Virus record (IMG/VR): IMGVR_UViG_3300031857_000279
Location: 1-51,471 of that record
Origin: a virus
Length of the DNA: 51,471 nt
Reading direction: 5' to 3' (one strand)
Below, one piece after another: positions 2,385 through 51,471 of this stretch. Position 1 is the first letter of the stretch. Each line of letters begins with the position of its first letter. The translations under genes were made by a program, and so were the position numbers. The notes under the pieces were generated by a model. That model ran no database searches. It was given only the letters and a program-made list of their open reading frames with translations, and was not told the origin of the DNA.

Positions 2385-2800
2385 TTTGGGTATATAATGA
2401 TGAGGAATTCACCGACGAATTAATTCCTGAAGGTGCCGTAGGATTCGTGTATCGTATGACTACAGCTATTGATGGTGATGTAGTAATGTATATAGGTAAG
2501 AAAAACTTTTACGCCAATCGTAAAGTAAAACTTGGAAAGAAAGCTGCACCAACAGATAAACGTAAGAAAGACTATAAGCGAGTATCTAAATTAGATTATC
2601 ATAAATATTACAGCAGTAATGAAGTGCTAAAGAAGGCCCATAAAGATGGGATACCAATTAGAAGAGAGATGCTTAAGATATGCTATAGTCAAATGGAGCT
2701 TACGTATGAAGAGGCTAAGTTTCTATTCTGTAATGAGGTTCTGGAAAAAGAGCACTACCTGAATAATAATATATTAGGTAAATTCTATAAAACAAAGTAA
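2381..2800 (+). CDS. GIY-YIG family nuclease
   Basis: The 139-residue protein has the two halves of the GIY-YIG motif: GFVY at residues 21-24 and YIG at 37-39. A basic region then leads to DYHKYYSSNEVLKK, which matches the W/Y-x-x-Y-x-(G/S)-S pattern of phage GIY-YIG nucleases, and a C-terminal Glu-containing helix precedes a final HYLNNN segment. The order resembles the small endonucleases of T4-like and other phages. It is coupled to its neighbours (ATGA with the primase, TAATG with the next gene), so it is part of the operon and not an obviously inserted free-standing element. It may process recombination intermediates, cut host DNA, or be a homing endonuclease; the sequence does not decide. 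Confidence 0.68.
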   Translation: MIWVYNDEEFTDELIPEGAVGFVYRMTTAIDGDVVMYIGKKNFYANRKVKLGKKAAPTDKRKKDYKRVSKLDYHKYYSSNEVLKKAHKDGIPIRREMLKICYSQMELTYEEAKFLFCNEVLEKEHYLNNNILGKFYKTK

Positions 2801-3987
2801 TGAATTTAAGAGACGAGTCTTTAGCTAAAATTACTAAAGATCTCATGTTCACAGAACCTTTCTATGGTCTCTTGTTAGTTGCCATGAATAAAACATGGAC
2901 TACTCAATTAGAAACTGCAGGTGTAACAGTCACAGGTATCAATTTCAGTCTTGCAATTAATCCTGATTATTGGGATAGCTTGAATGATGCACAGAAGAAA
3001 GGTTTATTAAAACATGAGTTAATGCACATAGCATTCTTTCATCTAACAGATTTTAGTCATCTGGCGGATAGAATGATTGCAAACTGGGCAATGGATATCG
3101 AGATCAATCAGTATATTGATCCTACATGGCTACCTAAAGGTGGCCTACTACCAAGTACATTTCCACATCTAAATCTCAAAGAGAAAGAAGGTACTCTGTA
3201 TTACTATGAGAAACTTAAGGAACTACAGGATGAAGTAATTCAAACAATCAAAGATGCTATAGCAAACGGAGAGTTAGATGTTACATTACCTGATGATACC
3301 AATGTTAAATTGACAGAACATGATTGGTCTGATATAGAAAACCTAGATGAAGGTACTCAGAAAGTAATAAGAGAACAAAGCTCTGCTATAATACAAGATG
3401 TAGCTGAGCAAGTAGAAAAGTCTAGAGGTACTTTGCCTGGTGAAATCAAACAGATCATAGAAGCACTCAAGAATATACCGCCACCTAAGTTTGACTGGCG
3501 TGGTTATATGAGAAGATTTGTAGGTAAGTCTGTTAAGATATATACTAAGAAGAGTAGAAGGAAGCTTAGCAAAAGATATGAGGATAATCCTGGTCTTAAG
3601 ATTAAGCAACGCAAACACATCTTAGTAGCAATTGATACATCAGGATCTGTATCTAAGTCAGAGTTAGTCGAGTTCCTACAGGAGATACATCATATACATA
3701 AAACAGGTAATGATGTTACTATAATACAATGTGATACTGCGATATCTCATGTAGGTAAATACAAACCTGGGGAAGACTACAAGATCCATGGACGCGGGGG
3801 AACTAGCTTTCAACCCGTAATAGATTACTATAATGAACGTATTAATAAGATCAGTTGTCTTATCTATTTTACAGATGGAGAGGCACCTGCACCTATTGAT
3901 GCAAGAGGTAATATATTATGGGTCTTAAGTAGTTCAAGTGAAATAAATGAATCCTTACCTGGATTTCAAATTAAGTTAGATCTATGA
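2800..3987 (+). CDS. DUF2201-like metallopeptidase-type domain plus VWA domain
   Basis: The 395-residue protein has two parts. Near the N-terminus a KHELMH motif (His72, Glu73, His76) followed by an N-x-A-x-D-x-x-IN pattern matches the putative metallopeptidase domain of the DUF2201 family. The C-terminal part is a von Willebrand A-like domain with the MIDAS start AIDTSGSVS (Asp279, Ser281, Ser283), a later GGTSF threonine, and the FTDG strand. Proteins of this kind usually work with a MoxR/CobS-type AAA+ ATPase, and one is encoded two genes downstream. The likely role is a metal-dependent adaptor in an AAA+ remodelling complex; whether the HExxH domain cleaves peptides is unknown. The start uses a TAATG overlap, and the stop overlaps the zinc-ribbon gene. 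Confidence 0.75.
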   Translation: MNLRDESLAKITKDLMFTEPFYGLLLVAMNKTWTTQLETAGVTVTGINFSLAINPDYWDSLNDAQKKGLLKHELMHIAFFHLTDFSHLADRMIANWAMDIEINQYIDPTWLPKGGLLPSTFPHLNLKEKEGTLYYYEKLKELQDEVIQTIKDAIANGELDVTLPDDTNVKLTEHDWSDIENLDEGTQKVIREQSSAIIQDVAEQVEKSRGTLPGEIKQIIEALKNIPPPKFDWRGYMRRFVGKSVKIYTKKSRRKLSKRYEDNPGLKIKQRKHILVAIDTSGSVSKSELVEFLQEIHHIHKTGNDVTIIQCDTAISHVGKYKPGEDYKIHGRGGTSFQPVIDYYNERINKISCLIYFTDGEAPAPIDARGNILWVLSSSSEINESLPGFQIKLDL

Positions 3988-4187
3988 TATGTTGTATTTG
4001 TAATGAAGAGTTTGATGAGATTGAAGAATTAGTAATAGAAGGTCAATCATTTCAAACACAAGGCGGGCATAATCCTGCACCAGTAAAAGATGAAGGTAGG
4101 TGCTGTACAAAGTGTAATTTCTCTGTAGTAGTACCAGCAAGAGTTAAAGAATTTATTAAAGAAAGAACACCAAATGGGAAAGGTTAG
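3984..4187 (+). CDS. Small zinc-ribbon protein
   Basis: The 67-residue protein has two CxxC knuckles (Cys3-Cys6 and Cys41-Cys44, with extra Cys4 and Cys40) and a GGHNPAPV segment between them, followed by RCCTKCN and a VVVPARV strand. I recognise this layout from many small phage zinc-ribbon proteins of unknown function. It starts in an ATGA overlap with the VWA gene and overlaps the AAA+ gene by 14 bases, so it is locked between the two partners of that cassette. It could be a structural zinc adaptor for the complex, but that is inference from position. Confidence 0.7.
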   Translation: MICCICNEEFDEIEELVIEGQSFQTQGGHNPAPVKDEGRCCTKCNFSVVVPARVKEFIKERTPNGKG

Positions 4188-5364
4188 ACTAGAAAGTAAA
4201 GAGTTAAAAGAATTCTTAAGATACATCATTAAGAATAATCAGAACATCCAAGAGAAGGGCAAGAGTCCTATTGCTGTAGAAATTGTTGGTGAATCAGGTA
4301 TGGGTAAAACCAGTGCCGTAATCCAACTTGCCCAAGAAGAAGGGCTACATTTTGTAAAGCTTAATCTTGCACAGATTGAGGAACTAGGGGATCTAGTAGG
4401 ATTCCCGATTAGACAATTCAAGTTAGTTAAAGCAGATGCCGCATCAGGTATTAAGCTAGCAAAATGGGTAGACGAGAATGCTGTTGATGAATATATTAAG
4501 CAAGGATACCAATTCACAAGTGAAAAGAGAATGAGCTACTGTCCACCTGAGTGGATTGCAGATAAGAACAGTGGTGGTATATTACTACTAGATGACTGGA
4601 ACAGAGCAGATGTTAGATTTATTCAGGCAGTAATGGAGCTTGTAGATAGGCAAGAGTATATCTCATGGAAGCTACCAAAGAACTGGCATATAATTCTGAC
4701 TGCTAACCCAGATGATGGGAAGTATCTCGTTAACTCAATTGACTCAGCTCAAAGAACTAGATTCATTAGTACTGAGATTAAGTATAGTGTAGAGCGCTGG
4801 GCTGAGTGGGCAGAAGCAAATGAGATTGATGGTAGATGTATCAACTTTTTATTAATGCACCCTGAAGTAGTTAACGAAAATGTTAATGCAAGATCTGTAA
4901 CTAAATTCTTTGACTGTCTTGATTCAATTGAGAACTACGAGTCTAAACTGGGCCTAATCCAACAAATAGGTGAGGGCTCTGTAGGTGTAGAAGTAGGTAC
5001 TTTATTTACTCAGTTTATAGCAAATCGATTAGACAAGATTATTAATCCTAAGCGCATGCTTCTTGAAGGCGCACATGAAACTGTTATCGAGGAGATAAGA
5101 GAAAGCGTGTATGATCATTCAGGATACAGAGCTGATATTGCAAGTATGTTAACCAGTCGTTTAGTTAACTATGCTTTGTTCCATGCTGAGAAGAATCCAA
5201 TTGATCAAAAGACATTGGATAGAATCACTGAGCTGATAAAAGCAGATGGTGTATTTAACAATGATTTGAAATATATCATTGCAAAAAGATTGTTTAACGG
5301 TAATAAGGCTAAGTTTCAGAAACTAACATTCATTCCTGAAGTAGCTGAATTAATTATGAAGTAA
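4174..5364 (+). CDS. MoxR/CobS-type AAA+ ATPase
   Basis: This 396-residue AAA+ protein has Walker A GESGMGKT (residues 39-46, Lys45), Walker B LLLDDWNRA (Asp140-Asp141), and sensor-1 TANPDD, followed by an arginine-containing SAQRTRF segment. The DDWNRA form is typical of MoxR-like ATPases, where E/D-x-NRA is common. Such ATPases remodel protein complexes together with VWA-domain partners, and the VWA protein is encoded just upstream. It overlaps the zinc-ribbon gene by 14 bases. T4-like cyanophages carry comparable CobS/CobT-like pairs. Substrate unknown. The C-terminal roughly 150 residues are helical with no motif I recognise. Confidence 0.85.
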   Translation: MGKVRLESKELKEFLRYIIKNNQNIQEKGKSPIAVEIVGESGMGKTSAVIQLAQEEGLHFVKLNLAQIEELGDLVGFPIRQFKLVKADAASGIKLAKWVDENAVDEYIKQGYQFTSEKRMSYCPPEWIADKNSGGILLLDDWNRADVRFIQAVMELVDRQEYISWKLPKNWHIILTANPDDGKYLVNSIDSAQRTRFISTEIKYSVERWAEWAEANEIDGRCINFLLMHPEVVNENVNARSVTKFFDCLDSIENYESKLGLIQQIGEGSVGVEVGTLFTQFIANRLDKIINPKRMLLEGAHETVIEEIRESVYDHSGYRADIASMLTSRLVNYALFHAEKNPIDQKTLDRITELIKADGVFNNDLKYIIAKRLFNGNKAKFQKLTFIPEVAELIMK

Positions 5365-38745: not shown

Positions 38746-41337
38746 TTAACCTGGTACATCTGCTTGGTAACTTAAATAATCTGGAATTTGAGGAGTATCA
38801 TCTTGTATTCCTGCATCAGCTTTAGCAATAGACCATACAACATTATCAGAAACTCCTTTTAATTTATTTCTATAATCAGAGAATAAATCATAAGCAGTAC
38901 TTTGATTAGATGAACCTGGAGTAATTGGACCTGATGGAATAAATCCTTCATAATCTTGAGTAAATGGATTCCATTGAAAATTAGGAGTTCTAAGATTCAT
39001 TGCTTGATAACCAGCTTCGTTTGTTTCTCCTATACCAAAGGCTTTAGAAACTTCTGCAAGAGCAGCTGAATTCCTAGCTTGTATTGCTTCTTTCCTATTA
39101 CTCCATTTATCATATAGATTAGTAGTTAAGTTAGCATAATTATTAGCAAAGTTGTTAATAGTATTTGCTGCATTTGCGGAGAAGTTATTAATGATTTGCT
39201 GATTAGCATTATGAATAGCTGCAGTTTGTTGAGTAATAGCATCAGCATTTACTTGAGTTGCTGCAGATAATCCCGCAGTACTTGGAGCATATGCTCTAAT
39301 GTTTTCTAAACCAAGAGCTTGCTGACCTCTAATTTGCGATTGCATATCTTCTGGAGAAAGTAAGAATGCATTAGGCAAATACATACTAGGAAATGCTTGA
39401 AAAGGAACTGGAGGTTGAGGAGCAAATCTTTCACGTGTAGCTCTTGCAAACTCAAATATATCTGGCGCAGTCCATCCTTTTCTAATAGCACCTGATTTAT
39501 ATTTTAATGCTTCTCTCTTTTTCTCAGGTGTCATGATTGCTTCTTCAGGATTAAATCCTGCTTCAACAAACTTTTTAGGGTCATCTAAATAAGCAATCTG
39601 TCCAGTTGTAGTATTAGTATAGATACCATCAATTGCAGATATCATACCTGCACCTGCTTTACCCTTAACTACATCATCACCTTTACCTACTTGACCAATA
39701 TCAAATCCCTTAAGTTCTTTTTTTAAATCTTCACTTAAATTCTTATCATCAATCAAATTTTGATATCCAATATATAAAGCTTGTTCAGTAGCGGCATCAA
39801 TTTTATCTGGAGTAGTAAGTCCAATTCTTTTCCACTCAGCATCAAATTGAGAGTTAGTAGAACCTAATTGATCAGGATCATTTTCAAAATCTGCAATTGG
39901 TTTACCTGTTGCAGCACTATGCGCGTATGTAGCAAGGTTTCTTTTTTGCATATCTAAGAACATCTGATATGCAACTTCTGGATCCTGAAGTTTCTTTTTA
40001 ATTTCTGCAATTTGAGTAGGAGAAAGTCCTCTTACTTTACTAGTATCATCCATAGCATCAAGAGCTCGTTTTCTAAGCTCTTCTTTAACTTTAGGATTAT
40101 TAAATTTCTCCTTAATATAATTATATTGGAAAGCTTGTGCTTTTTGTCCAGCAAATAGAGTATTAAGATCTTCTGATTCATAATCAGACCAAGCAGATTT
40201 TTGCTGTACTATTTTATAGCTACCATCTGAATTCTTAACAACTACAGGTTTACCATTCGACTCTGTATAAGCAGCTGCTCTTGCAGTTTCATACTCATCT
40301 TGTGACTTATACTTTGAACGATCTATAATAATAGCATCTGCAGGTATCTGACTACGAGTAATCTTAATACCCGTATTTGTTCCTTCATTAGGTCTTACAT
40401 ATCCAACTAATTCATTATTTGCATTAACAAGTTCATACTGTCCTGTTTGAGGATTGTATCTAACTCGTTCACCTGATTGAATAGTTCCTGCTTTTTGATA
40501 TTTTTTTACTCCTCCACCATTCTTATATTTAACCAAACCACCTCTACGCATAGGCATACCTTGAGGCATTTGCATTTCAGGTTGAGGCATAGGAGTACCA
40601 GGCATACCTTGCATAGGAGGCATACCATTATCCATTTGTTGAGCAAAAGCTTGTTCTTGTGCTGGTGCCTTAATTGCTTCTAAGAAAGGATCAATTGCTT
40701 TTTCAATATCTAATCCTATTTTTTCTGCATAAGGAACACCTACCGCAGGAACATCTGTTTCACCTTCATCATTAGTAAAGCCTTTAGTAGCTTCTTGAAG
40801 TAATGATATCAAACCAAGCTTATCAATCTTGTTTTGAATATTCATTTGTGCAGTATCTTTTGTTATTTGATCTGAATCAGGATCTAATAAAAGTTTAATA
40901 TCGTCATTAAGCATATATGGCTTTGACAACTCTGCATACGTGTATCCAGATTTCTTAGCAGCTTTACCAAGCATCTTAAGAATATCTGCATCTCTCTCCT
41001 TAAGATAATCTGAGAATATAAAACTTCCTTCAGGTACACTAAGCGGTGTTCCACCTTTAGAATGTTTCTTACCTCCGATAATATATGTTTTAGGAAGAGC
41101 TTTTGTCCAAGCATCATCCCCCATAGGAGTAATGATTGTTTCACCTTTTTCAGCTTCAATATTTGCTTTTTCTCTAGAAGTAGGACCCAGATTTTTTTTA
41201 ACTTCAAGACCAGGTTCCATGCCTTCTTTAAAGCTAATAGGAAATTGAAAAGCATTATTATTAAGCTTTCCTTTTGTAGACGTCCCTAGCTCTGCTTTAG
41301 GAAGCGGCTCTTTCTTAATACGAACTCTGTACTTCAT
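38746..41337 (-). CDS. Virion-type protein (863 aa) with glycine-pair motifs
   Basis: Order of parts: an N-terminal basic stretch; a segment with IEAEKGETIITP and then IIGGKKHSKGGTPLSVPEGS (about residues 57-112), a pattern I recall from several Bacteroidota phage virion proteins; a helical region; a Met/Pro/Gln-rich linker (about 232-262) ending in RRGGLVKYKNGGGVKKYQKAG (given in part here as RRGGLV and KNGGG); a mixed region; and a C-terminal Asn/Ala-rich heptad-like stretch (about 702-752) that may form a coiled coil. Function unknown; structural or cargo protein inferred from position. It is separated from the upstream gene by only 2 bases, so the two are probably translated from one transcript. 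Confidence 0.65.
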   Translation of the reverse strand: MKYRVRIKKEPLPKAELGTSTKGKLNNNAFQFPISFKEGMEPGLEVKKNLGPTSREKANIEAEKGETIITPMGDDAWTKALPKTYIIGGKKHSKGGTPLSVPEGSFIFSDYLKERDADILKMLGKAAKKSGYTYAELSKPYMLNDDIKLLLDPDSDQITKDTAQMNIQNKIDKLGLISLLQEATKGFTNDEGETDVPAVGVPYAEKIGLDIEKAIDPFLEAIKAPAQEQAFAQQMDNGMPPMQGMPGTPMPQPEMQMPQGMPMRRGGLVKYKNGGGVKKYQKAGTIQSGERVRYNPQTGQYELVNANNELVGYVRPNEGTNTGIKITRSQIPADAIIIDRSKYKSQDEYETARAAAYTESNGKPVVVKNSDGSYKIVQQKSAWSDYESEDLNTLFAGQKAQAFQYNYIKEKFNNPKVKEELRKRALDAMDDTSKVRGLSPTQIAEIKKKLQDPEVAYQMFLDMQKRNLATYAHSAATGKPIADFENDPDQLGSTNSQFDAEWKRIGLTTPDKIDAATEQALYIGYQNLIDDKNLSEDLKKELKGFDIGQVGKGDDVVKGKAGAGMISAIDGIYTNTTTGQIAYLDDPKKFVEAGFNPEEAIMTPEKKREALKYKSGAIRKGWTAPDIFEFARATRERFAPQPPVPFQAFPSMYLPNAFLLSPEDMQSQIRGQQALGLENIRAYAPSTAGLSAATQVNADAITQQTAAIHNANQQIINNFSANAANTINNFANNYANLTTNLYDKWSNRKEAIQARNSAALAEVSKAFGIGETNEAGYQAMNLRTPNFQWNPFTQDYEGFIPSGPITPGSSNQSTAYDLFSDYRNKLKGVSDNVVWSIAKADAGIQDDTPQIPDYLSYQADVPG

Positions 41338-41339
41338 AG

Positions 41340-43508
41340 TTATAGGTATTCAATTTGACCACCTCGTTTCATAATGTCTTGAATCTCATCTTCGTCAAGA
41401 TAATAAACACTTTCATCTTCATCATCATAACCATCCATATAAGATCCACCTGCTTGGTAAGTTCCACCATATGCACCAAGGTTAGGTTGCATTGTATTTA
41501 ATTCACCTGGATTTTGTGGAAACCTGTAAGCTTGAGAATAGTCAGGTTGAAGGTATGGTATTTCTTGTCCTATTAAACCTGGTCCCATACCATGACTTCC
41601 TTTACCCATAAGCATATCACCTCTTAATGTAGCATGCCAACTTGTTGGAGTATATGCAGCTTCATTTTCAGGAGTTTGTGCTGCTTCTAACATTGTAGAA
41701 GCAAAATCCATTCCAGGACTTGCAAATCTACCAATACCTCCAAGAGAAGGTGAGTATTTATTTCTCATTACAAGTTTACCTGCTCTACCACCTACTGCCA
41801 TAGGTTGTGTCTTTTCCTCAAACAAGTTCATTTCTTGATCAATTGCTTCTTGAGGTATTTCTCCTTTGAACATATTCGTAGGAAGATTATTAGATAATGT
41901 TTCTCCAGTTTTTCTTCTATATTTACGAGCATTTCTATCCATTGCTCTTTCACCTCTTCTGATATCTCTTTCAGTTTCTTTTTCAGAATCAGGTTGTCCA
42001 AATCCTCTAACTAACTTACCAAAACGATTAGCAAATCCTTTTTCTTTATTTCTAGTTACATCATCTTCTGATAAACCATCTTCAGGAGTTCTACCACTTT
42101 GTCGAAGATATTCAGGATCTTGATAAGATTTCATTGCCTTACGTTCTGTAGTAAGATTACCATAAGCATCACGTACATTTTTTTCTGTATCATCATACAT
42201 ACTAAAATCTCCTACTCTTTCAACTGAACCATCAGGTTTATATTTCCATTTAGCAACAAGTCTAGGACCCATTATTCCTGAGCTTACTTTAAACTTATTC
42301 ATGAAAACATCTTCTGGAGTCATTGCTTGAAATGCTTGACCTATTGCACCTGCTCCATATGTACCTAATAGATTTTCCATACTAGAAGCAGCAGGGAATC
42401 CTCCAGTAAATCCTCCAGGATAACCTTGCCCTCCTTGAGTCCCAGGTTGACCAAATTTAAGTTGACCATTTTCAAAATAGAATCCACCCATAGGTCCTGT
42501 ATAATATTTTGAACCTTGTCCTTGATTTTGAGTTGTTGTTTCATTTCCAACATCTCGTTGTCTACGTAATGCTTCAATATATGTATTGACACGATTTACT
42601 GCATCAGAATCTTGTCTACCTTCTTTTACTGCTTGATGATATTCTTCGTCAGTAACTCCTAAATCATCAAGTGCCATGTTAATTTCATCAGTAGTATATG
42701 TTCCTCCAGGTTGAAATCTTTTAGCACCACCAAACCTAGACATACTCATTTCATCCTGTTTTCTCATTTCCCTAAACATAGGACCTACAGCTCTTGTTTT
42801 AATACTTGTAGCTTCTGTGTCTTCTGCAAGATCACCTAATGCACCCATAAAATTTTGTCCTGCATTTTGAAGTTTATTCTGCATAGAGTAAAAATTCTGA
42901 ATCATTGGATTACCTGCAGGATCATCATACCCGCCATAGAAAGGTCCAAAGTTGTAGTTATAGCTACCCCCAAGATCATACATATCATTAGGAGCTCCAG
43001 CATTATTCATCTGGTTCATCTTCATTTCATATGCTTTGTCAACTATGTTAAGCATCATTTTTTTTCCTAAACTATTCATAATAAGTTTAGCATTATTCTC
43101 AACAACATTATCAGAAGTTACATTTTGATTTGTAGCTCCACCAGCAATTTTCTTATATAAAGATTTTTTAACCTTATTCATATCTCCACCAAATCTTGCC
43201 ATTGGTGCAGTCTCAGAAGGCATTGCTGCTACTGAAGGACCTCCTTGAGAACTTTGCTGAGACATAAGCTGTTCTGCTATTTGTGATAACATAGCTTGCT
43301 GTTGATCAGGTTGCATTTGCATAAATGATTGCATAAACTGTTGAGCCTCTTGCTCAGTCATTTGTTGTGACTGCATATAAGCTTTAAGAATCATCTCTGC
43401 TTGCCCACCTTGATCAGCTCCAGGTATTTGACCTCCTGGTTGATATATTGCCATTGATGGTCCTGATTGTCCTGATGGTCTAAACACTCTTACTTTTTTT
43501 CTTTCCAT
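41340..43508 (-). CDS. Virion-type protein (722 aa), Gln/Met-rich, glycine-pair motifs
   Basis: The protein opens with a basic segment and IYQPGGQI, followed by a Gln/Met-rich helical stretch (about residues 40-95). ARFGGD (about 106), SRFGGAKRFQPGG (about 255-268) and a C-terminal module (683-722) with YQAGG, YYLDEDEIQDI and KRGGQIEYL follow. The final module matches the ends of the upstream 1022-residue protein. Much of the middle is low-complexity and Gly-rich. No enzyme motif is visible. It is inferred to be a virion component from its place in the late block. Its 61-base upstream gap is A/T-rich and may hold a promoter. Confidence 0.65.
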   Translation of the reverse strand: MERKKVRVFRPSGQSGPSMAIYQPGGQIPGADQGGQAEMILKAYMQSQQMTEQEAQQFMQSFMQMQPDQQQAMLSQIAEQLMSQQSSQGGPSVAAMPSETAPMARFGGDMNKVKKSLYKKIAGGATNQNVTSDNVVENNAKLIMNSLGKKMMLNIVDKAYEMKMNQMNNAGAPNDMYDLGGSYNYNFGPFYGGYDDPAGNPMIQNFYSMQNKLQNAGQNFMGALGDLAEDTEATSIKTRAVGPMFREMRKQDEMSMSRFGGAKRFQPGGTYTTDEINMALDDLGVTDEEYHQAVKEGRQDSDAVNRVNTYIEALRRQRDVGNETTTQNQGQGSKYYTGPMGGFYFENGQLKFGQPGTQGGQGYPGGFTGGFPAASSMENLLGTYGAGAIGQAFQAMTPEDVFMNKFKVSSGIMGPRLVAKWKYKPDGSVERVGDFSMYDDTEKNVRDAYGNLTTERKAMKSYQDPEYLRQSGRTPEDGLSEDDVTRNKEKGFANRFGKLVRGFGQPDSEKETERDIRRGERAMDRNARKYRRKTGETLSNNLPTNMFKGEIPQEAIDQEMNLFEEKTQPMAVGGRAGKLVMRNKYSPSLGGIGRFASPGMDFASTMLEAAQTPENEAAYTPTSWHATLRGDMLMGKGSHGMGPGLIGQEIPYLQPDYSQAYRFPQNPGELNTMQPNLGAYGGTYQAGGSYMDGYDDEDESVYYLDEDEIQDIMKRGGQIEYL

Positions 43509-43569
43509 AATGTATGGTATATAAGTATAATATAGTAAAAATAAAATTTATTTGCTAAACATAGGATAT
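43509..43569 (-). other. A/T-rich gap before the 722-residue gene
   Basis: A 61-base gap composed almost wholly of A and T on both sides of a short mixed part. It is the longest gap in the right block and could contain a late promoter or leader. I see no clear -7/-33 pair and no hairpin with a T tract. Confidence 0.3.
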
Positions 43570-46500
43570 TTATTCTTCTATGACAGTTATCCCGCCTGCT
43601 CTTAGTTGATTTATTTCGTCTTGAGTAAGATATTCAACAGTACCTCCTGTAGCAAAGTTATTCTTATCATAGAACATATGTAGTTCTAATGCGTTGTTAC
43701 CAGGATCCATGTTACCACCTTTTTTAAAAGTTTCAATTTGACTATTTTGAGTATTAACTGTAGGTACATTACTTGTTTCTAAAATTGGAGATTTTGGTTG
43801 TTGAAACGTTTTATTAAATGCAATAACATCCTCCGCATTTTTTAAAAGTTTTCTTTTCTTTTTGTTACTAATATCCATATTATTAATACGGTCAATCATT
43901 TGTTGATTGTAATCAACTTGTATTATATCTTCTTGAGGTCTTTCAGTATTAAAATAACTTCTATCTAAAGCTACTGTAGCAAGAGTTGGTCTAGGTCCTC
44001 TATCAGCTTTGTTTTCTGCAGCTTTCCAAGCAGCTTGTTTTTTTATAAGCTCATCTTGCATTTTTTTAGTCTGACCTATATAGCGATAATAGTCCATTCT
44101 ATCAAGAGGCTCTATATTTGTTTCATAGTTAGTTAAACCATAAGCTAAACGAACACCATTGTCAGCATTGTAATAATTACCTGCTTCAGGATTATTAGGT
44201 TCATCAGCATCAGGACTAGCATAAATAGTTGTATGGTGAGGTCTTCTTATATAACCTTTAGAAGCATCTGTATAATCTGCAGGAGAGTTTTCAACCCAAA
44301 GAGCCATATCTCCAGGTTGTCTTTGATTAGCAGGAATTTTTTCAAAAGGTAAAGATCCACTATTTACTTTTTGTACAAAATCAAGATTACCTCCAATAAT
44401 TGGTACGTCATTAGCTCCTGCTTTTTGATATGTAAAACATCCATAAGGAGTACAATATAATTCACGACTAGGTGTTGCTCGTGGATTCCATTGATTTTCA
44501 TTTGCATCCCATCTAGCTACATTATACTTTCCTTGATTAGGAAGTAATGCTTTTACAGTTGGGGTTAACGTTTGTCGTGCAGCTTCTAATTGTTTTGGGT
44601 TTTCTGCTGAAATATAGTTTGAATATGCTTGTCCTTCAGGACTATTAAACCAATCATCAGTAAGCATATAATTATCTGCACTATCTAACGTTTTAGCAGT
44701 AGGGATTATATTTTTTCTTACATTAGCAACACGTTGTTTTTCTTTCTCTAATGCAATAATGTAATCATCATATGCTTTCTTAGCAGCATCTGCAGTTTGC
44801 GCATAATATTCTCCATACGTTAATTCAGAATCTGTAGGCGCATTACTAGCTTGTGATTGAATACCATTTTGAGCTTGTGTAAGGCCTCCTTTTTGATATC
44901 TTTCTGTAGTCTCTTCTCCTGTAGTTGGGTTATAATACATTACTCTAGGAGCATTCATTTCTTCCCAACCTTCTCCAGGAAAATATGCAGAATAAGGAAC
45001 TTGTCTTAATTCTTTTACTCTAAACTTACCTTTTCTGTTAGGATCAGGTTCCATAATAGTTTGAGATCTATTAGCAACTTGTATAGGTTCGTATTTTTGA
45101 GGAATATAATTATAATTATTAGGAATGATTTCTGTTTGTATTTGTGGTAATTTTTTAGTAGGTAGGTATAGTGTCTCTAACTTAGGATTAGTTTTAACTG
45201 GTTTTATATATACAAACTCATTACCAGCTTCTGTATATGTGCCTATTCTTGGATCATCAGGATCAGATACATATATTGGTGGATATTTCTTATTATAATT
45301 TTGTGATTTGGACGTATTTGACTTAGATGCAGTACTACTTGGATTTACAAATTTTACAGGCTGTACTGGTTTTTTATATTTCCATACTCTCCATGGTTGT
45401 TGACCTGTATAATAGGTATATTCTTTAATTGGATTAATCCTACTATAAGGATTGCCTGGTAACATAAGTTCTCCCCATCCTTGATTTTTACCTTGAAGAT
45501 CGCCTAATGTATGCATCTGTTTATCACTGCCGTTATAGTTTGATTTTTTTAAAGCATTCTGAAATTCATTATAGGCATAATATAAAGATAAACTATCCTT
45601 ATAGGCAGCTTGTCTTGATCTAAAGTCATCTATGTCTGAAGTAAGATAAGGTTTAACCGTTTTTCCTTTCTGAGCTTGAGTTAATTGAGGTCCTGTTGTA
45701 CCAGCAGTTTGGAAATGAGTAATTTGATTATTTACATAACCACCTTTACGTTGTGTAATAACAGGTTGTTCTACAGCATTTTCTGCAGCATCTTCAGCTC
45801 TCCACTGTTGAAGAGTTTCATTATATGGTATAGTAGAATAAATAGGCCAATACTGATTTCCTCTAGTATAATGTTTATAGTTGTCTTTATTGAACTTATT
45901 ATCCATAGAATATTCTACATCTATATTATCGCGATTTTTAAATCTAGCTACAAATACTCCAGGGGACACTTCTACCTTCTGATATTGATCAGGTTTATAT
46001 GTACCTTCTTGTGTAGTAAAATCACCTGTTCGTTCATTATAGTATGGTATTACAGCATCTTCCTGTTGTTTTAATTTTTCTAATCTTAATGATTCACCTG
46101 ATCTATCAGTATAAGGTTTCTGAGTATCAAAGTATGTCATTGGGTTAGGTGGTGTTTCTGTTGTACCAGCAGTTTGAGCCATAGGTAGTTCTTCTACAAC
46201 GTATCCACCTTTTCTATACTGTTCAATTTCTTCATCTGTTAAATCAAGATATTCACCACCATCTTGGTAAATATCTTTATCATAGAACATATGTAGTTCA
46301 AGAGCATTATTACCAGGATCATTTTTATCTACAAATCTACCACCATCTCTAGCCATTTGTTTTTCAACAATACTATTAGCTCCAGGAAAGTATGTAGTAG
46401 TAGTGTCCCATGCTGGTTTAAATACAGGTGCCATTCCATTATCAGGATAAAGCATTAGATCTTTATCCGTAGGATTATAAATTGAATCTGTATAAAGCTT

Positions 46501-46638
46501 AAGCGCAGGTTTATTAGAATTTTTTGGATTCTTATATCCATTGCCTTTTATATCAACATTAATGTCTGCAGTTTTCTTCTGAGACTTAGCAGCCTTTGCT
46601 TCCTTAAGAGCTTTTGAGAGTTCTGATCTATTATACAT
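43570..46638 (-). CDS. Virion-type protein (1022 aa) with probable cysteine peptidase domain and duplicated ends
   Basis: Residues 107-150 and 978-1022 form a duplicated module: DPGNNALELHMFYDK, then a glycine pair, an YL-x-x-D/E-E-I helix and GGYVVEE or GGITVIEE. Further glycine-pair motifs lie near 295 and 577, each followed by a Gln/Ala/Gly stretch. Between them (about residues 725-805) is a probable NlpC/P60- or CHAP-like cysteine peptidase: ELYCTPYGCF (Cys near 729 and 733), QPGDMALW (near 776) and HHTTIYAS (His near 801). That domain could cut peptidoglycan during entry. The stop of the upstream gene shares its last base with this ATG (TAATG). The duplications are plain in the sequence; the enzyme reading is moderate. 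Confidence 0.68.
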   Translation of the reverse strand: MYNRSELSKALKEAKAAKSQKKTADINVDIKGNGYKNPKNSNKPALKLYTDSIYNPTDKDLMLYPDNGMAPVFKPAWDTTTTYFPGANSIVEKQMARDGGRFVDKNDPGNNALELHMFYDKDIYQDGGEYLDLTDEEIEQYRKGGYVVEELPMAQTAGTTETPPNPMTYFDTQKPYTDRSGESLRLEKLKQQEDAVIPYYNERTGDFTTQEGTYKPDQYQKVEVSPGVFVARFKNRDNIDVEYSMDNKFNKDNYKHYTRGNQYWPIYSTIPYNETLQQWRAEDAAENAVEQPVITQRKGGYVNNQITHFQTAGTTGPQLTQAQKGKTVKPYLTSDIDDFRSRQAAYKDSLSLYYAYNEFQNALKKSNYNGSDKQMHTLGDLQGKNQGWGELMLPGNPYSRINPIKEYTYYTGQQPWRVWKYKKPVQPVKFVNPSSTASKSNTSKSQNYNKKYPPIYVSDPDDPRIGTYTEAGNEFVYIKPVKTNPKLETLYLPTKKLPQIQTEIIPNNYNYIPQKYEPIQVANRSQTIMEPDPNRKGKFRVKELRQVPYSAYFPGEGWEEMNAPRVMYYNPTTGEETTERYQKGGLTQAQNGIQSQASNAPTDSELTYGEYYAQTADAAKKAYDDYIIALEKEKQRVANVRKNIIPTAKTLDSADNYMLTDDWFNSPEGQAYSNYISAENPKQLEAARQTLTPTVKALLPNQGKYNVARWDANENQWNPRATPSRELYCTPYGCFTYQKAGANDVPIIGGNLDFVQKVNSGSLPFEKIPANQRQPGDMALWVENSPADYTDASKGYIRRPHHTTIYASPDADEPNNPEAGNYYNADNGVRLAYGLTNYETNIEPLDRMDYYRYIGQTKKMQDELIKKQAAWKAAENKADRGPRPTLATVALDRSYFNTERPQEDIIQVDYNQQMIDRINNMDISNKKKRKLLKNAEDVIAFNKTFQQPKSPILETSNVPTVNTQNSQIETFKKGGNMDPGNNALELHMFYDKNNFATGGTVEYLTQDEINQLRAGGITVIEE

Positions 46639-49600
46639 TATCTAGGTGAATAAAGATTTTTAACATTAGCAATATTAAACAACATTTTAACATTACCTGA
46701 TACAGTTCGTCTAAAAAGTATTACATGTCTATAGTGCCTAAACTTTTTACGCTCAGTTTGAAACTTATTGTAATTAAGATTGGCAGGATTAAGATTTCTA
46801 ATGTATCCATTAGGTTCTGTTAAGAATGGAGTTTCTTGAGCTCCAGTAAATTCACCTCGATCATTAGTAATATCCCAGAACTGATTAACTCTAAATTTAT
46901 TCTCTTCTTTAGAGAAAAGAATATCAATAAAGTTAGGATTGATAATAGGATACTGAATCATCAATGTAGGATCATTTTTAGGTACAATATTCAATCTTAA
47001 TAATCCTGAGCACTGCTCGGAGTTGTAAATAGTAAGCTCATCAAAGTTGAAATCTAAGACATGAAATCTATCATGACAATTATCTGAATAAATAAAAGAT
47101 TCTAACTGATACTCAAGACTACGCATAGTAACTATTTGTTGAACAGTATCTGTTTGAAATTCTATCTCAAAAGGATAATCAATATCATAGTAATTACAAT
47201 ATGAATCACATACATCATTATGTACCCATACAGAATTATTCAATACTGATAAGAAAGTATTTTTACCTGGTATGAGAAGTGTTGGATGCCAGTCATGATA
47301 AGATACCCACTGTCCTACTTTAGGATCATAACTCATAGTCCATGATGCATCTTGAAAATATGCAGGGTCACCAAGTTCAACTAGTGTATTTAATTGGTCT
47401 ACTCTAAATAAGTTACGACGCTCGTAAGTAAGTGTGTATGGAATATCAGTTCTTACAACATAATCTTTCTTGCAGAAGTACATTAACATATCTTCATTAT
47501 TGTATACTGCATGACATCCAATACCAATTACAGGATTATCGAGTAATTCAAAATCAGGGAACTGTTCAGTTAATTGATAAGGAAGATAAGTAGCAAACCA
47601 CCACTTAAGTCCTCCAGGTAAAGATATCTCTTGAATGCCTTGACCTGCTACTGCAAATATCTTACCTTGATTCTGTGATACATAGAAAACACCAACTGGT
47701 GTAGAAACAACAGATCTCAAACTTTGACATGATCCATATTCATATGGTCTATCAGAGTTATCTAGATATTGTAATGGTTGACTAAATAGTGCACCGTCTC
47801 CAATGGTAACCTTTGTACCTGATTCAAGTGTTAATTGTTCTACTCCTAAAAACTGAGTTGGTGAATCAGTTTCAAATAATATTAATGCACCATTAAGATT
47901 AATAGGTTTAATAGCAGTTACTTTACTCCTGAAGTCTTTATAATTAAGAGGTAAGAATATTCTCCAGTAATCCTGACGACTTTCTAATGACTGAGGAAGT
48001 GAATATAAAACTCTGTTAGGTCGATATACATAACAAGACTCAGCAATAAGAGGATCATAATTTCTAGTATGAGTAGTTCCCCAACTAATTAAGTTATTAT
48101 ACAGTTTGTTAATGCTAAGAGAGAAGTCATACTTAAAGAAGTTACCTGACTTAATTATCTCAGTACTAAATAATCTTTGCAAATCTGTATATTCAAAAGG
48201 ATCATAATGTTTTTCAAATAACAGTTCTCCCCAATCACGAAGATCAACGTTAATATTAGATTCAACATAGAAGTCTCTTACTCCTGAATTAAATAGATAC
48301 ATGAAAGCATTCTTTACAACAAAGAATCCTTGTAAACTTGCATTACTACTTCTATCAAAACAGTTCTTATCTGATGGAGTAACTATATCTTGTAAAAAGT
48401 TACCTCCTGTAATAGCAGGTAATATACTATTAATAAAATCTGACCAATCAAACTCTTCTGAATCCATCCAGAAAGCAGTATGTGGTATCATTTTATTTAT
48501 TCTATAGTTATACTCTGCACCGTCAGGTTGATTAAACAACCAATTATAGAAGTAGAACATTGTGTTCTTTTCTGTGTATCTTCCTACATAGGTATCACCA
48601 TTAAATAGCGGAGTAGTTTTAGTATTTGCAATTGGAGTCCAACAAGTAGATACTGGAACTTGTATGATAGATTCTATTTGTCCATATTGATTACGAGCTC
48701 TTTGTTTTAGACCAACGTAATGTGAAGATGCTGTTCTATTAAATGGTGTCTTAGGATTTTTAAACTTATCATCAGTAGATAAGGCATTACCATTTTCATC
48801 TGCCATATTAGCTTGTCCAACTGTTACTCTAGAGTTATCTACAGTTAATGGATCTAGTAAATCTCGTTTAGTTTCAAGAGTAACACATCTTGATCTAAAT
48901 AAATTATTAATTCTATATTCATCTGTAAAATCTTGAATATAAGGTTCTAGATATCTAGACTCTTCAATAACAGTTCTTTTATTTGTTGCTTGCGGTGCTC
49001 TAAAATTATTGTAAAAACAATGTGAGTTATATTGCAATGCATACTGTTGATATTTATTAGCAGCCTTTAATAGTCTTAATGTTGAGTTTACTCCATCAAC
49101 CATGTAGTTGTAGAATAAGATAGGTTTATTAAGGTTTGCTAAGAAGTTTGGAATAGCAGAAGTAGGAGTTGCAACAGACTCAGTAGCAGTAAATCCACTA
49201 ATACCTCCAGGTACTTGATATATAACATCTCCTAATCCTGATAATGCACCTGATGAAGCATCAACTATTGCTTGAGCTCCAGGTACTCCTGCAGCAGCAA
49301 GTGAAGAAAATAAATTATAAACAGTATTGTCTAATGCACCTGCAGCATTATATCCTTGGAAGAAACCTTGCGCAATAACACCACTGTCAAATACAGCAGC
49401 ACCAGAAGAGGCGCCAGCAAGGATTAATCCAATATTTTGATAATGTGGAGAATAGTCAACAGTACTTCTCTTTTCTTGTATAGCTAATGTTGCAATACCA
49501 ATACCAATTAAAATTGATGAGATAAATGCAGCATCAGTTACAAACTTATGTTTAGGATGTTTTTCAGGATAATCAAATGCTCCTTCAGTAACTCCATTTA

Positions 49601-51471
49601 ATTCACCATATATTTTTAGTTCAGTAGCTGATAGATAAGGATCTATGAACTGAGTATCGGGAGAATGAAATGTAAAGACACTTCTCGAAAAATTATTATT
49701 AGGATCAAATCCTGAGTATGCATTATCATTATAAGAAGGCCCTGTTGAACCAGTCAATGGTTCATAAGAAGTTTTGTCTTTAGAAATAAAGTAATCTTCT
49801 TGTAAACAATTATATGGATAGTTAGGATATAAACCTTGACGAGATGTAATTAAGTTAGTACTAGAATCATTATCCCCATCAATATCAAACTCACACATGT
49901 TATTAATCATTCCTTTAGCAATGATTGTTTCTTGTCCAACACGTGATCCTCTTAAGATTTCATATCCTACAATATTGTTAATAGGCAATCCATCATTATC
50001 TACAGGTGGCTTTACATTTTCAAATACAACACCCATTACTCGTATAAACTTATTGCCGTTAGCATCTACGAAGAAATGATTAGTAAGTTGGTTACCACCC
50101 AAATCACTCATGTTGTCAGGAAATCTATGGTGCCTAATATAATCATTACATAAATCATACTGAGGTATAGTAGTTCCTAAATAAGGAGGAAGTGTAACTT
50201 GAGACCAAGGATGTGCAGAAGCATTCCATATCTGAGGTTTGTCATCAGGATATAATTCTGTTGATTCCCAATAACCCATATAACCTTCTGCAACAATAGT
50301 ACCTCCATCATCTGTAGTTGTTCCTGTATATGATCCTGGAGTTACTACAGCAGTATTATTTACTTGCCAGTTAGATATACTTGCAAGAGGAATACCTGCA
50401 GTTAACTCAGGTTCTGCATTTATAATACTTGACCCTGATATAATAGCAGTGTCAGTTCCAAAAGGAGGACGTCCTGGAATATGATATGACACAGACTTAT
50501 CACCTGTATTATAAATCCATCTAATAAAGAATGAGTATACTTCGTCGCGTAGATATCCTGTTTTATTACCACCATCTCTGTAGTATGTTTCAGGATACTG
50601 TACATTAATCCATTTAGCTCTAATTTGATTTGCTAGTGGCTGATAGTTAAAGTCAAACTTATCAGTAGGGCCCACTCTTAGCATGTAAGGTCCTGTTTCA
50701 AATATAGCATCTGACTTATCTGCTATAGGTGTTCTTATAGCAAGTACATTCTTTGACAACTGTACCCAAGCAGGGTCAACATAATCGAGTGTTATCTTTT
50801 TCTGTCGAGTACTATAGATACCTACTTTAGATGCTACAGTTTGGTTATTAAAGAACTGTACAAGTACTAATTCAAATTCATCAAATCTTCTTTCTTCAAT
50901 TAAATCAATATAGATATCTAAAGAAGAAGCGGTATTTGCATGAATGAATAATGGTTGTATATTAGATGGAATAAAGTAATCAGTTACTTTTTGTTCTTGT
51001 ACTGTATACGCAACAACTACAAAATAAGTACCATTAGGCATTAATCCACCAGAAGCACCTCTTTCTAATCTGATACAAGGTTGTTGGATTATAGGTTCTA
51101 ATCTTAATAGTTCGCAATCTAGCTGATTTGTGTTGATACAAGTTATACATCCTACAGGATAGAATGGGCTACTAGGCGTATTGCCTGATTCATCTGTGCA
51201 TATTTGTACCCATGGGATATCTGTAGTAGGACTAGAAGGATCATTATTAGAAGGGGTGTCTACATCGACAGAGATATACCTATCAGGATTGAAACCATCA
51301 GACCAATAGATATCATACTTACATTCAAAGTTCTGCTTAGATACACCCGTAATAAGATTAGTCCTGTCAAAGTTTAGACAGTTTGCATTTGCAACTTTAT
51401 AATACGTACAGCTTTCCTCCTTGAATATCCCAATTTCTGATTTACTATCATCCGTACTAAACAGTATCCAA
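46638..51471 (-). CDS. Tail-end protein, muzzle/stabilisation-like, 5' truncated at the window edge
   Basis: The frame stays open from 51041 to the right edge, so the ATG at 51041 is internal and the true start lies outside; 1610 residues are visible. The first visible part is Cys-rich (for example GCITCINTNQLDC) and has IYWSDGFNPDRY and PNGTYFVVVAYT segments, which look like beta-sandwich modules. A hydrophobic stretch (about residue 640 from the edge, SSILIGIGIATLAIQ, then GLILAGASSGAAVF) lies in the middle. The C-terminal part is beta-rich with propeller-like strands (GVFYVSQNQGKIFAVAGQG). P22 gp10-like stabilisation proteins and the crAss-like muzzle have this kind of place, first after the tail genes and before the cargo genes. 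Family assigned from context and look. Confidence 0.6.
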   Translation of the reverse strand, partial: WILFSTDDSKSEIGIFKEESCTYYKVANANCLNFDRTNLITGVSKQNFECKYDIYWSDGFNPDRYISVDVDTPSNNDPSSPTTDIPWVQICTDESGNTPSSPFYPVGCITCINTNQLDCELLRLEPIIQQPCIRLERGASGGLMPNGTYFVVVAYTVQEQKVTDYFIPSNIQPLFIHANTASSLDIYIDLIEERRFDEFELVLVQFFNNQTVASKVGIYSTRQKKITLDYVDPAWVQLSKNVLAIRTPIADKSDAIFETGPYMLRVGPTDKFDFNYQPLANQIRAKWINVQYPETYYRDGGNKTGYLRDEVYSFFIRWIYNTGDKSVSYHIPGRPPFGTDTAIISGSSIINAEPELTAGIPLASISNWQVNNTAVVTPGSYTGTTTDDGGTIVAEGYMGYWESTELYPDDKPQIWNASAHPWSQVTLPPYLGTTIPQYDLCNDYIRHHRFPDNMSDLGGNQLTNHFFVDANGNKFIRVMGVVFENVKPPVDNDGLPINNIVGYEILRGSRVGQETIIAKGMINNMCEFDIDGDNDSSTNLITSRQGLYPNYPYNCLQEDYFISKDKTSYEPLTGSTGPSYNDNAYSGFDPNNNFSRSVFTFHSPDTQFIDPYLSATELKIYGELNGVTEGAFDYPEKHPKHKFVTDAAFISSILIGIGIATLAIQEKRSTVDYSPHYQNIGLILAGASSGAAVFDSGVIAQGFFQGYNAAGALDNTVYNLFSSLAAAGVPGAQAIVDASSGALSGLGDVIYQVPGGISGFTATESVATPTSAIPNFLANLNKPILFYNYMVDGVNSTLRLLKAANKYQQYALQYNSHCFYNNFRAPQATNKRTVIEESRYLEPYIQDFTDEYRINNLFRSRCVTLETKRDLLDPLTVDNSRVTVGQANMADENGNALSTDDKFKNPKTPFNRTASSHYVGLKQRARNQYGQIESIIQVPVSTCWTPIANTKTTPLFNGDTYVGRYTEKNTMFYFYNWLFNQPDGAEYNYRINKMIPHTAFWMDSEEFDWSDFINSILPAITGGNFLQDIVTPSDKNCFDRSSNASLQGFFVVKNAFMYLFNSGVRDFYVESNINVDLRDWGELLFEKHYDPFEYTDLQRLFSTEIIKSGNFFKYDFSLSINKLYNNLISWGTTHTRNYDPLIAESCYVYRPNRVLYSLPQSLESRQDYWRIFLPLNYKDFRSKVTAIKPINLNGALILFETDSPTQFLGVEQLTLESGTKVTIGDGALFSQPLQYLDNSDRPYEYGSCQSLRSVVSTPVGVFYVSQNQGKIFAVAGQGIQEISLPGGLKWWFATYLPYQLTEQFPDFELLDNPVIGIGCHAVYNNEDMLMYFCKKDYVVRTDIPYTLTYERRNLFRVDQLNTLVELGDPAYFQDASWTMSYDPKVGQWVSYHDWHPTLLIPGKNTFLSVLNNSVWVHNDVCDSYCNYYDIDYPFEIEFQTDTVQQIVTMRSLEYQLESFIYSDNCHDRFHVLDFNFDELTIYNSEQCSGLLRLNIVPKNDPTLMIQYPIINPNFIDILFSKEENKFRVNQFWDITNDRGEFTGAQETPFLTEPNGYIRNLNPANLNYNKFQTERKKFRHYRHVILFRRTVSGNVKMLFNIANVKNLYSPR

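Follow-up and report, generated by a model that had tools for sequence, protein, structure and literature searches.

A short C-terminal tag shared by unlike proteins encoded between the muzzle and C1-like genes of crAss-like phages

To our knowledge, how crAss-like phages select and load their protein cargo is not known. In phage T4, IPIII and other internal proteins carry a capsid targeting sequence, an N-terminal peptide of about 10 residues that is removed by the protease gp21 (PMC9026906). The packaging signal of DarB, a large ejected host-takeover protein of phage P1, is also N-terminal, and 30 residues are sufficient for a reporter (PMC9024508). Polyvalent proteins are large multidomain proteins with ADP-ribosyltransferase, peptidase and murein-hydrolase domains; they are encoded near virion genes, and processing by zincins has been proposed for them (PMC5512222). 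In crAss001, the muzzle gene is followed by genes for the cargo proteins C1 (gp45) and C2 (gp46) and for RNA-polymerase proteins; residues 425–552 of gp45 lie on the portal (PMC10172136), and the maps resolve little of the cargo.

We analysed a 51,471-nucleotide stretch of viral DNA (the window), in which open reading frames of 1022, 722 and 863 residues lie on the minus strand exactly where the original prediction had placed them. Read in their own direction, the genes run from a muzzle-type gene (46638..51470, minus strand, 5′ end open in the window) to slot 1 (1022 residues, 43570..46638, minus strand), slot 2 (722 residues, 41340..43508, minus strand) and slot 3 (863 residues, 38746..41337, minus strand), beyond which follow products of 1098, 1593, 4265 and 1886 residues. 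The muzzle-type gene, our anchor, belongs to phrog_37948, a virion structural protein (E = 7e-50), and its product matched in tblastn the csAssE-Sib ‘Muzzle protein’ and proteins of Cellulophaga phi17:2, phi4:1 (gp42), Flavobacterium Fpv1 and Leptolyngbya Lbo-JY46. Phage phi4:1 gp42 is a virion protein by MS/MS, as are, by annotation, the products of the next genes, gp41, gp40 and gp39, of which gp41 is the syntenic counterpart of slot 1. Because the crAss001 cargo and these phi4:1 proteins likewise follow the muzzle, slots 1–3 are in the cargo position. Synteny and the MS/MS of a related phage suggest that the slot proteins of the window are themselves virion proteins. At 2800-5364 of the window, a putative DUF2201 metallopeptidase/VWA gene adjoins an AAA ATPase gene, resembling MoxR–VWA pairs.

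Slot 3, which has homologues in 52 loci, is probably a remote homologue of C1. Its profile alignment takes in phi17:2 gp41, Fpv1, csAssE and crAss001 gp45, and a C1-like domain at residues 55–185 (EAEKGE..GGKKHSKGG..SFIFSD..LLQE; 40783..41175, minus strand) is supported by alignment and hhalign. Against the portal-bound domain of crAss C1, hhalign gave a probability of 96% over 68 columns with an E-value of 2e-9, a figure that refers to a single pairwise comparison. Since this holds for all the slot-3 hhalign E-values and since Pfam gave no hit for crAss_CARG1 (PF25725) at E = 0.1, the homology falls short of proof. The 863-residue protein had no tblastn match in annotated phages, and Foldseek with its low-confidence AlphaFold2 model (pLDDT 57) returned nothing meaningful. 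It also contains a RRGGLVKYKNGGGVKKYQKAGT repeat (residues 264–285; 40483..40548, minus strand), with counterparts carrying several glycine pairs in loci L003 and L008. In a bajarodcaudo virus (L105, 2300-5263), the C1-type protein itself carries the annotation tail lysozyme, which suggests a fusion of lytic cargo with C1.

The original prediction held that the three slot proteins share a module of repeated short motifs, an aromatic or basic residue followed by x-GG, and that two of them end alike. All the quoted motifs are present: RKGGYV (residues 142 and 297) and QKGGLT (582) in the 1022-residue protein, RFGGAK (258) in the 722-residue protein and RRGGLV (264) in the 863-residue protein. 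So are the C-termini GGITVIEE and GGQIEYL, and their shared arrangement is far beyond chance in HMM and pattern tests. Relative to composition shuffles, glycine pairs were enriched in the 1022-residue protein (9 versus 3.7 expected, P = 0.015) and the 722-residue protein (18 versus 10.6, P = 0.010), whereas the 863-residue protein showed no enrichment (5 versus 5.2). We then turned to relatives, 89 muzzle-bearing loci, most of which came from a single scan of viral contigs anchored on the muzzle. Over these roughly 90 loci, [FYWKRH]xGG occurred in slots 1, 2 and 3 at 1.83, 2.27 and 1.98 times expectation (z = 11.9, 14.3 and 7.5), and was not enriched in upstream genes (0.84–1.09 times) or in the muzzle protein (0.91 times). 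The idea was to be given up if late proteins of related phages showed no enrichment or relatives no conservation; with about twofold enrichment in slots 1–3, the motif finding survived this test. What did not stand is the glycine pair as the conserved element of the ending, which is a single glycine. In the relatives, the small protein encoded two genes upstream of the muzzle is strongly depleted of glycine pairs (9 observed, 39 expected).

Rather than GG, the signal that stands out most is a tag of about 20 residues at the C-terminus, L/M-T-x-E-E-I-xx-Y/F-xxx-G-x-x-I/V-E-x-L-stop. The tag runs from a hydrophobic-T/S/D start through acidic residues and a helix to the invariant glycine and a strand-like hydrophobic end, and its position is C-terminal or internal, not N-terminal. 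In the window, slot 1 carries an internal copy, GGEYLDLTDEEIEQYRKGGYVVEEL (residues 127–151; 46186..46260, minus strand; HMM score 60 bits), in which AlphaFold2 predicts a helix at residues 135–143 with a pLDDT of about 92, and a terminal copy, GGTVEYLTQDEINQLRAGGITVIEE (residues 998–1022; 43573..43647, minus strand; 38 bits), whose position is the same in L002, L003, L008, L018 and L020. Slot 2 ends in DESVYYLDEDEIQDIMKRGGQIEYL (residues 698–722; 41343..41417, minus strand). Slot 3 has no tag.

The tag is nearly exclusive to slots 1 and 2. An HMM built on odd-numbered loci and applied to even-numbered loci at a cut-off of at least 5 bits recognized 26 of 37 slot-1 and 20 of 29 slot-2 C-termini (46/66), versus 0 of about 356 other C-termini. 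A looser pattern matched 84/133 slot 1–2 proteins versus 1/758 others (Fisher P = 1.8e-81). Of the genes immediately preceding a C1-like gene, examined in 52 loci, 47 carried the terminal pattern, and three more were tagged by eye. Because the loci are related phages rather than independent samples, all of these counts are higher than the number of events that arose independently. As a separate test, scanning the whole viral collection for Y-x-x-G-G-Y-I-V-E-[ED], unanchored to the stop codon, gave 99 matches in 92 stretches. Full tags accounted for 94 of them: 74 lay in stretches with a muzzle homologue, 4 were accompanied by a C1-like gene, and the other 16 had neither, several of these 16 being on short pieces of known muzzle contigs. 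A second scan, of all viral contigs, sought the slot-2 version N-G-G-E-[hydrophobic]-E-Y-[hydrophobic]-stop and returned 38 matches; the C1-like gene was directly downstream in 36, and in the other 2 the stretch ended there. The tag also sits at the corresponding position in Lbo-JY46, a cultured cyanobacterial phage with a muzzle of only about 28% identity; the slot-2 protein of this phage (XAI97385.1) ends in DLSPEEVAKLIELGYDFEVV. We also considered a universal crAss cargo signal and rejected it, as the tag is absent from gut crAss C1 and from the window's giant RNA-polymerase-type proteins, which are presumed to be cargo too. Nor was the tag found in csAssE-Sib, phi17:2 or Fpv1 proteins, and a recognized terminal tag is missing from about 40% of the slot-1 proteins.

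A conserved stretch next to a stop codon could act in the DNA or RNA, as a signal for ribosome binding or reinitiation at the next gene, and slot-2 tags do end a median of 6 nt ahead of that gene. Slot-1 tags, however, end about 58 nt from it, and internal copies lie far from gene starts. The synonymous codons of the tag vary freely, which led us to reject a DNA-level signal and, together with the existence of internal copies, indicates that selection acts on the protein; we regard a nucleic-acid role as very improbable.

The tags fall into two subtypes, with slot-1 termini of the form ..QGYIVEELD and slot-2 termini of the form ..ANGGEIEYL. Which subtype a protein carries depends on its slot rather than on the phage (permutation P = 0.36; both subtypes present in 19 phages), the pattern expected for two fixed binding sites. 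The subtypes also differ in the glycine pair. Among the internal slot-1 copies, of which we counted 55 true tags, about 46 have a glycine ahead of the invariant one, versus 7 of 37 slot-1 termini (Fisher P = 5e-10). In slot 2 the pair is shifted by one, with the second glycine on the other side of the invariant residue, so that no invariant GG was found at every tag copy. Double-glycine leader peptides have an N-terminal amphipathic helix, L-S/T-xx-E-L/I, ending in glycine. The tag resembles them in this helix, but it is C-terminal, has other spacing and does not conserve the second glycine.

The retention of GG in internal copies, and its loss at termini where there would be nothing to release, is what one would expect if the pairs were protease sites at which slot-1 polyproteins are cut at internal tags into separate cargo. 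Where domains have been mapped, they do sit between tags: in L074, SET (478–556) lies between tags at 420 and 699, and in L018, GNAT (882–950) lies between tags at 586 and 1000. Zincin processing of polyvalent proteins and the DUF2201-type metallopeptidase of the window would fit the same idea. On the other hand, that metallopeptidase belongs to an early-type block on the opposite strand, and no protease is tied to the slot gene block; the GG register is not shared by slot-2 tags or by several of the internal copies (DAGY, KDGY and NQGF); and a cut at a terminal tag would take off only 5–7 residues. A general GG cleavage site is disfavoured because the invariant residue is one glycine and the pair is not conserved. 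We consider cleavage unlikely as an explanation of the motif, although the internal slot-1 copies may be protease sites.

On its domain content, slot 1 is a polymorphic platform of the polyvalent type. Its relatives span 360–2400 residues with exchangeable enzyme domains. Among 75 members, Pfam found lysozyme (10), Phage_lysozyme2 (6), SLT (9), LysM (5) and SET (10) domains, as well as PG_binding, Amidase_2, VanY, YkuD, GNAT, ART-PolyVal, PARP and DUF5872, and these multidomain proteins with diverse effector enzymes lie near virion genes, as polyvalent proteins do. What is added here is a conserved tag framework, and crAss phages are absent from the text of PMC5512222. The tag is kept where the rest of the protein has been replaced, with 86% identity over 50 residues between the 1022-residue protein and one of 2400 residues, and up to three internal copies occur.

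Many slot-1 proteins begin with a conserved ‘ITM’ domain or, instead, a SET domain. The former, IPSNxITMxGV..PG..Y.FPG..V.E.P, is common to slot-1 proteins, Lbo-JY46 and phi17:2 gp41; in gp41 it is fused to a C1-like domain. Besides slot-1 N-termini, it was noted at L011 26505-29192 and L010 24236-25723. SET methyltransferase domains, unusual in a phage virion-type protein, were seen in slot 1 of L018, L021, L044, L051, L074, L095 and L098, sometimes replacing the ITM domain (about 10 of 75 by Pfam, others by eye).

The 1022-residue protein of the window showed no convincing Pfam or PHROG domain and no tblastn match in annotated phages, and the viral-contig scan found no relatives of its residues 584–960; residues 700–830 have the look of a papain-like hydrolase, by eye only. 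A DPGNNALELHMFYDK element occurs twice in it, at residues 107–121 (46276..46320, minus strand; near-identical in L002, L003 and L008) and 978–992 (43663..43707, minus strand). Duplicated and nearly invariant, this element sits in proteins whose remaining sequence is difficult to align. A linker motif, RKGGYVNNQITHFQTAGT (residues 297–314; 45697..45750, minus strand), has counterparts GGYVNKQITHFQDGG in L003, GGSYVDAQITHFQDGG in L008 and GGSYVDNQMVHFQPGG in L002. The slot-2 protein has homologues in the same three loci; as a query in a viral-contig scan it found no relatives. Sequence searches of the PDB gave no match.

Given the strong size turnover in slot 1, the GG motifs might be flexible joints for cassette exchange and the tag itself functionless. 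The cassettes (the N-terminal ITM domain, DPGNNALELHMFYDK, HNPANSF, FDPNAKYYQDGG and the tag) do start or stop at GG. We find this improbable, as a functionless joint would not keep 20 residues at the stop codon across muzzles as diverged as that of Lbo-JY46.

We favour, with a probability of roughly 55%, a docking role in which the shared ending serves to load slot-1 and slot-2 proteins into the virion, because unlike genes share a near-exclusive ending and always lie between the muzzle and C1-like genes. Of the functions offered in the original prediction, docking tag or packing signal fits best, whereas a zincin site is unsupported as a general role. As with the T4 capsid targeting sequence, which is found on proteins ejected with the DNA, one short peptide is common to otherwise unlike proteins, but here it is C-terminal and internal and about twenty residues long. 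Like the P1 DarB signal, it is a terminal peptide; DarB’s is N-terminal and belongs to one protein, whereas the tag is C-terminal and occurs in two slots. The locus shares its post-muzzle place with crAss001 gp45 and gp46, but in crAss001 no tagged protein is encoded between the muzzle and C1 genes, and gp45 itself bears no tag. We found no description of the tag in the literature searched, whose coverage excluded most subscription journals and all preprints.

As a docking tag, the ending would bring proteins encoded between the muzzle and C1-like genes into the virion as it assembles. Its partner would most likely be a component of the portal/tail-barrel end, for example the C1-like protein or the rings. 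The slot-1 subtype would serve a polymorphic cargo platform for murein hydrolases and host-modifying enzymes, the second subtype would serve the slot-2 proteins, whose gene adjoins the C1-like gene, internal slot-1 tags would mark fused cargo units, and the loaded cargo would be ejected.

The same strand-like end and confident AlphaFold2 helix could instead form an oligomerization or assembly element that packs on the same or a neighbouring chain, for example in the lining of the tail barrel, with no loading. Slot-specific subtypes without phage-specific covariation are also expected of fixed structural contacts. However, the tag occurs on slot-1 proteins that share little else and carry unrelated enzymes, and its internal repeats fit an address better than a single structural contact; we hold this explanation to be possible but rather unlikely. 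An extension of the docking reading, similarly tentative, is a two-address loading code in which both subtypes lead to the tail/portal cargo zone. One would direct the effector platform with its rapid turnover (murein hydrolases, SET methyltransferase, GNAT and ADP-ribosyltransferase) and the other a partner adjacent to the portal-bound C1-like protein, with fused cargo units marked by internal copies and possibly cut at GG after loading.

The tag marks cargo-type genes directly from sequence and thus provides a concrete candidate for a loading signal. It also draws attention to a large, uncharacterized pool of fast-evolving enzymes for host takeover that environmental crAss-like phages encode. 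Should the tag prove sufficient for loading, it would be a delivery handle as well.
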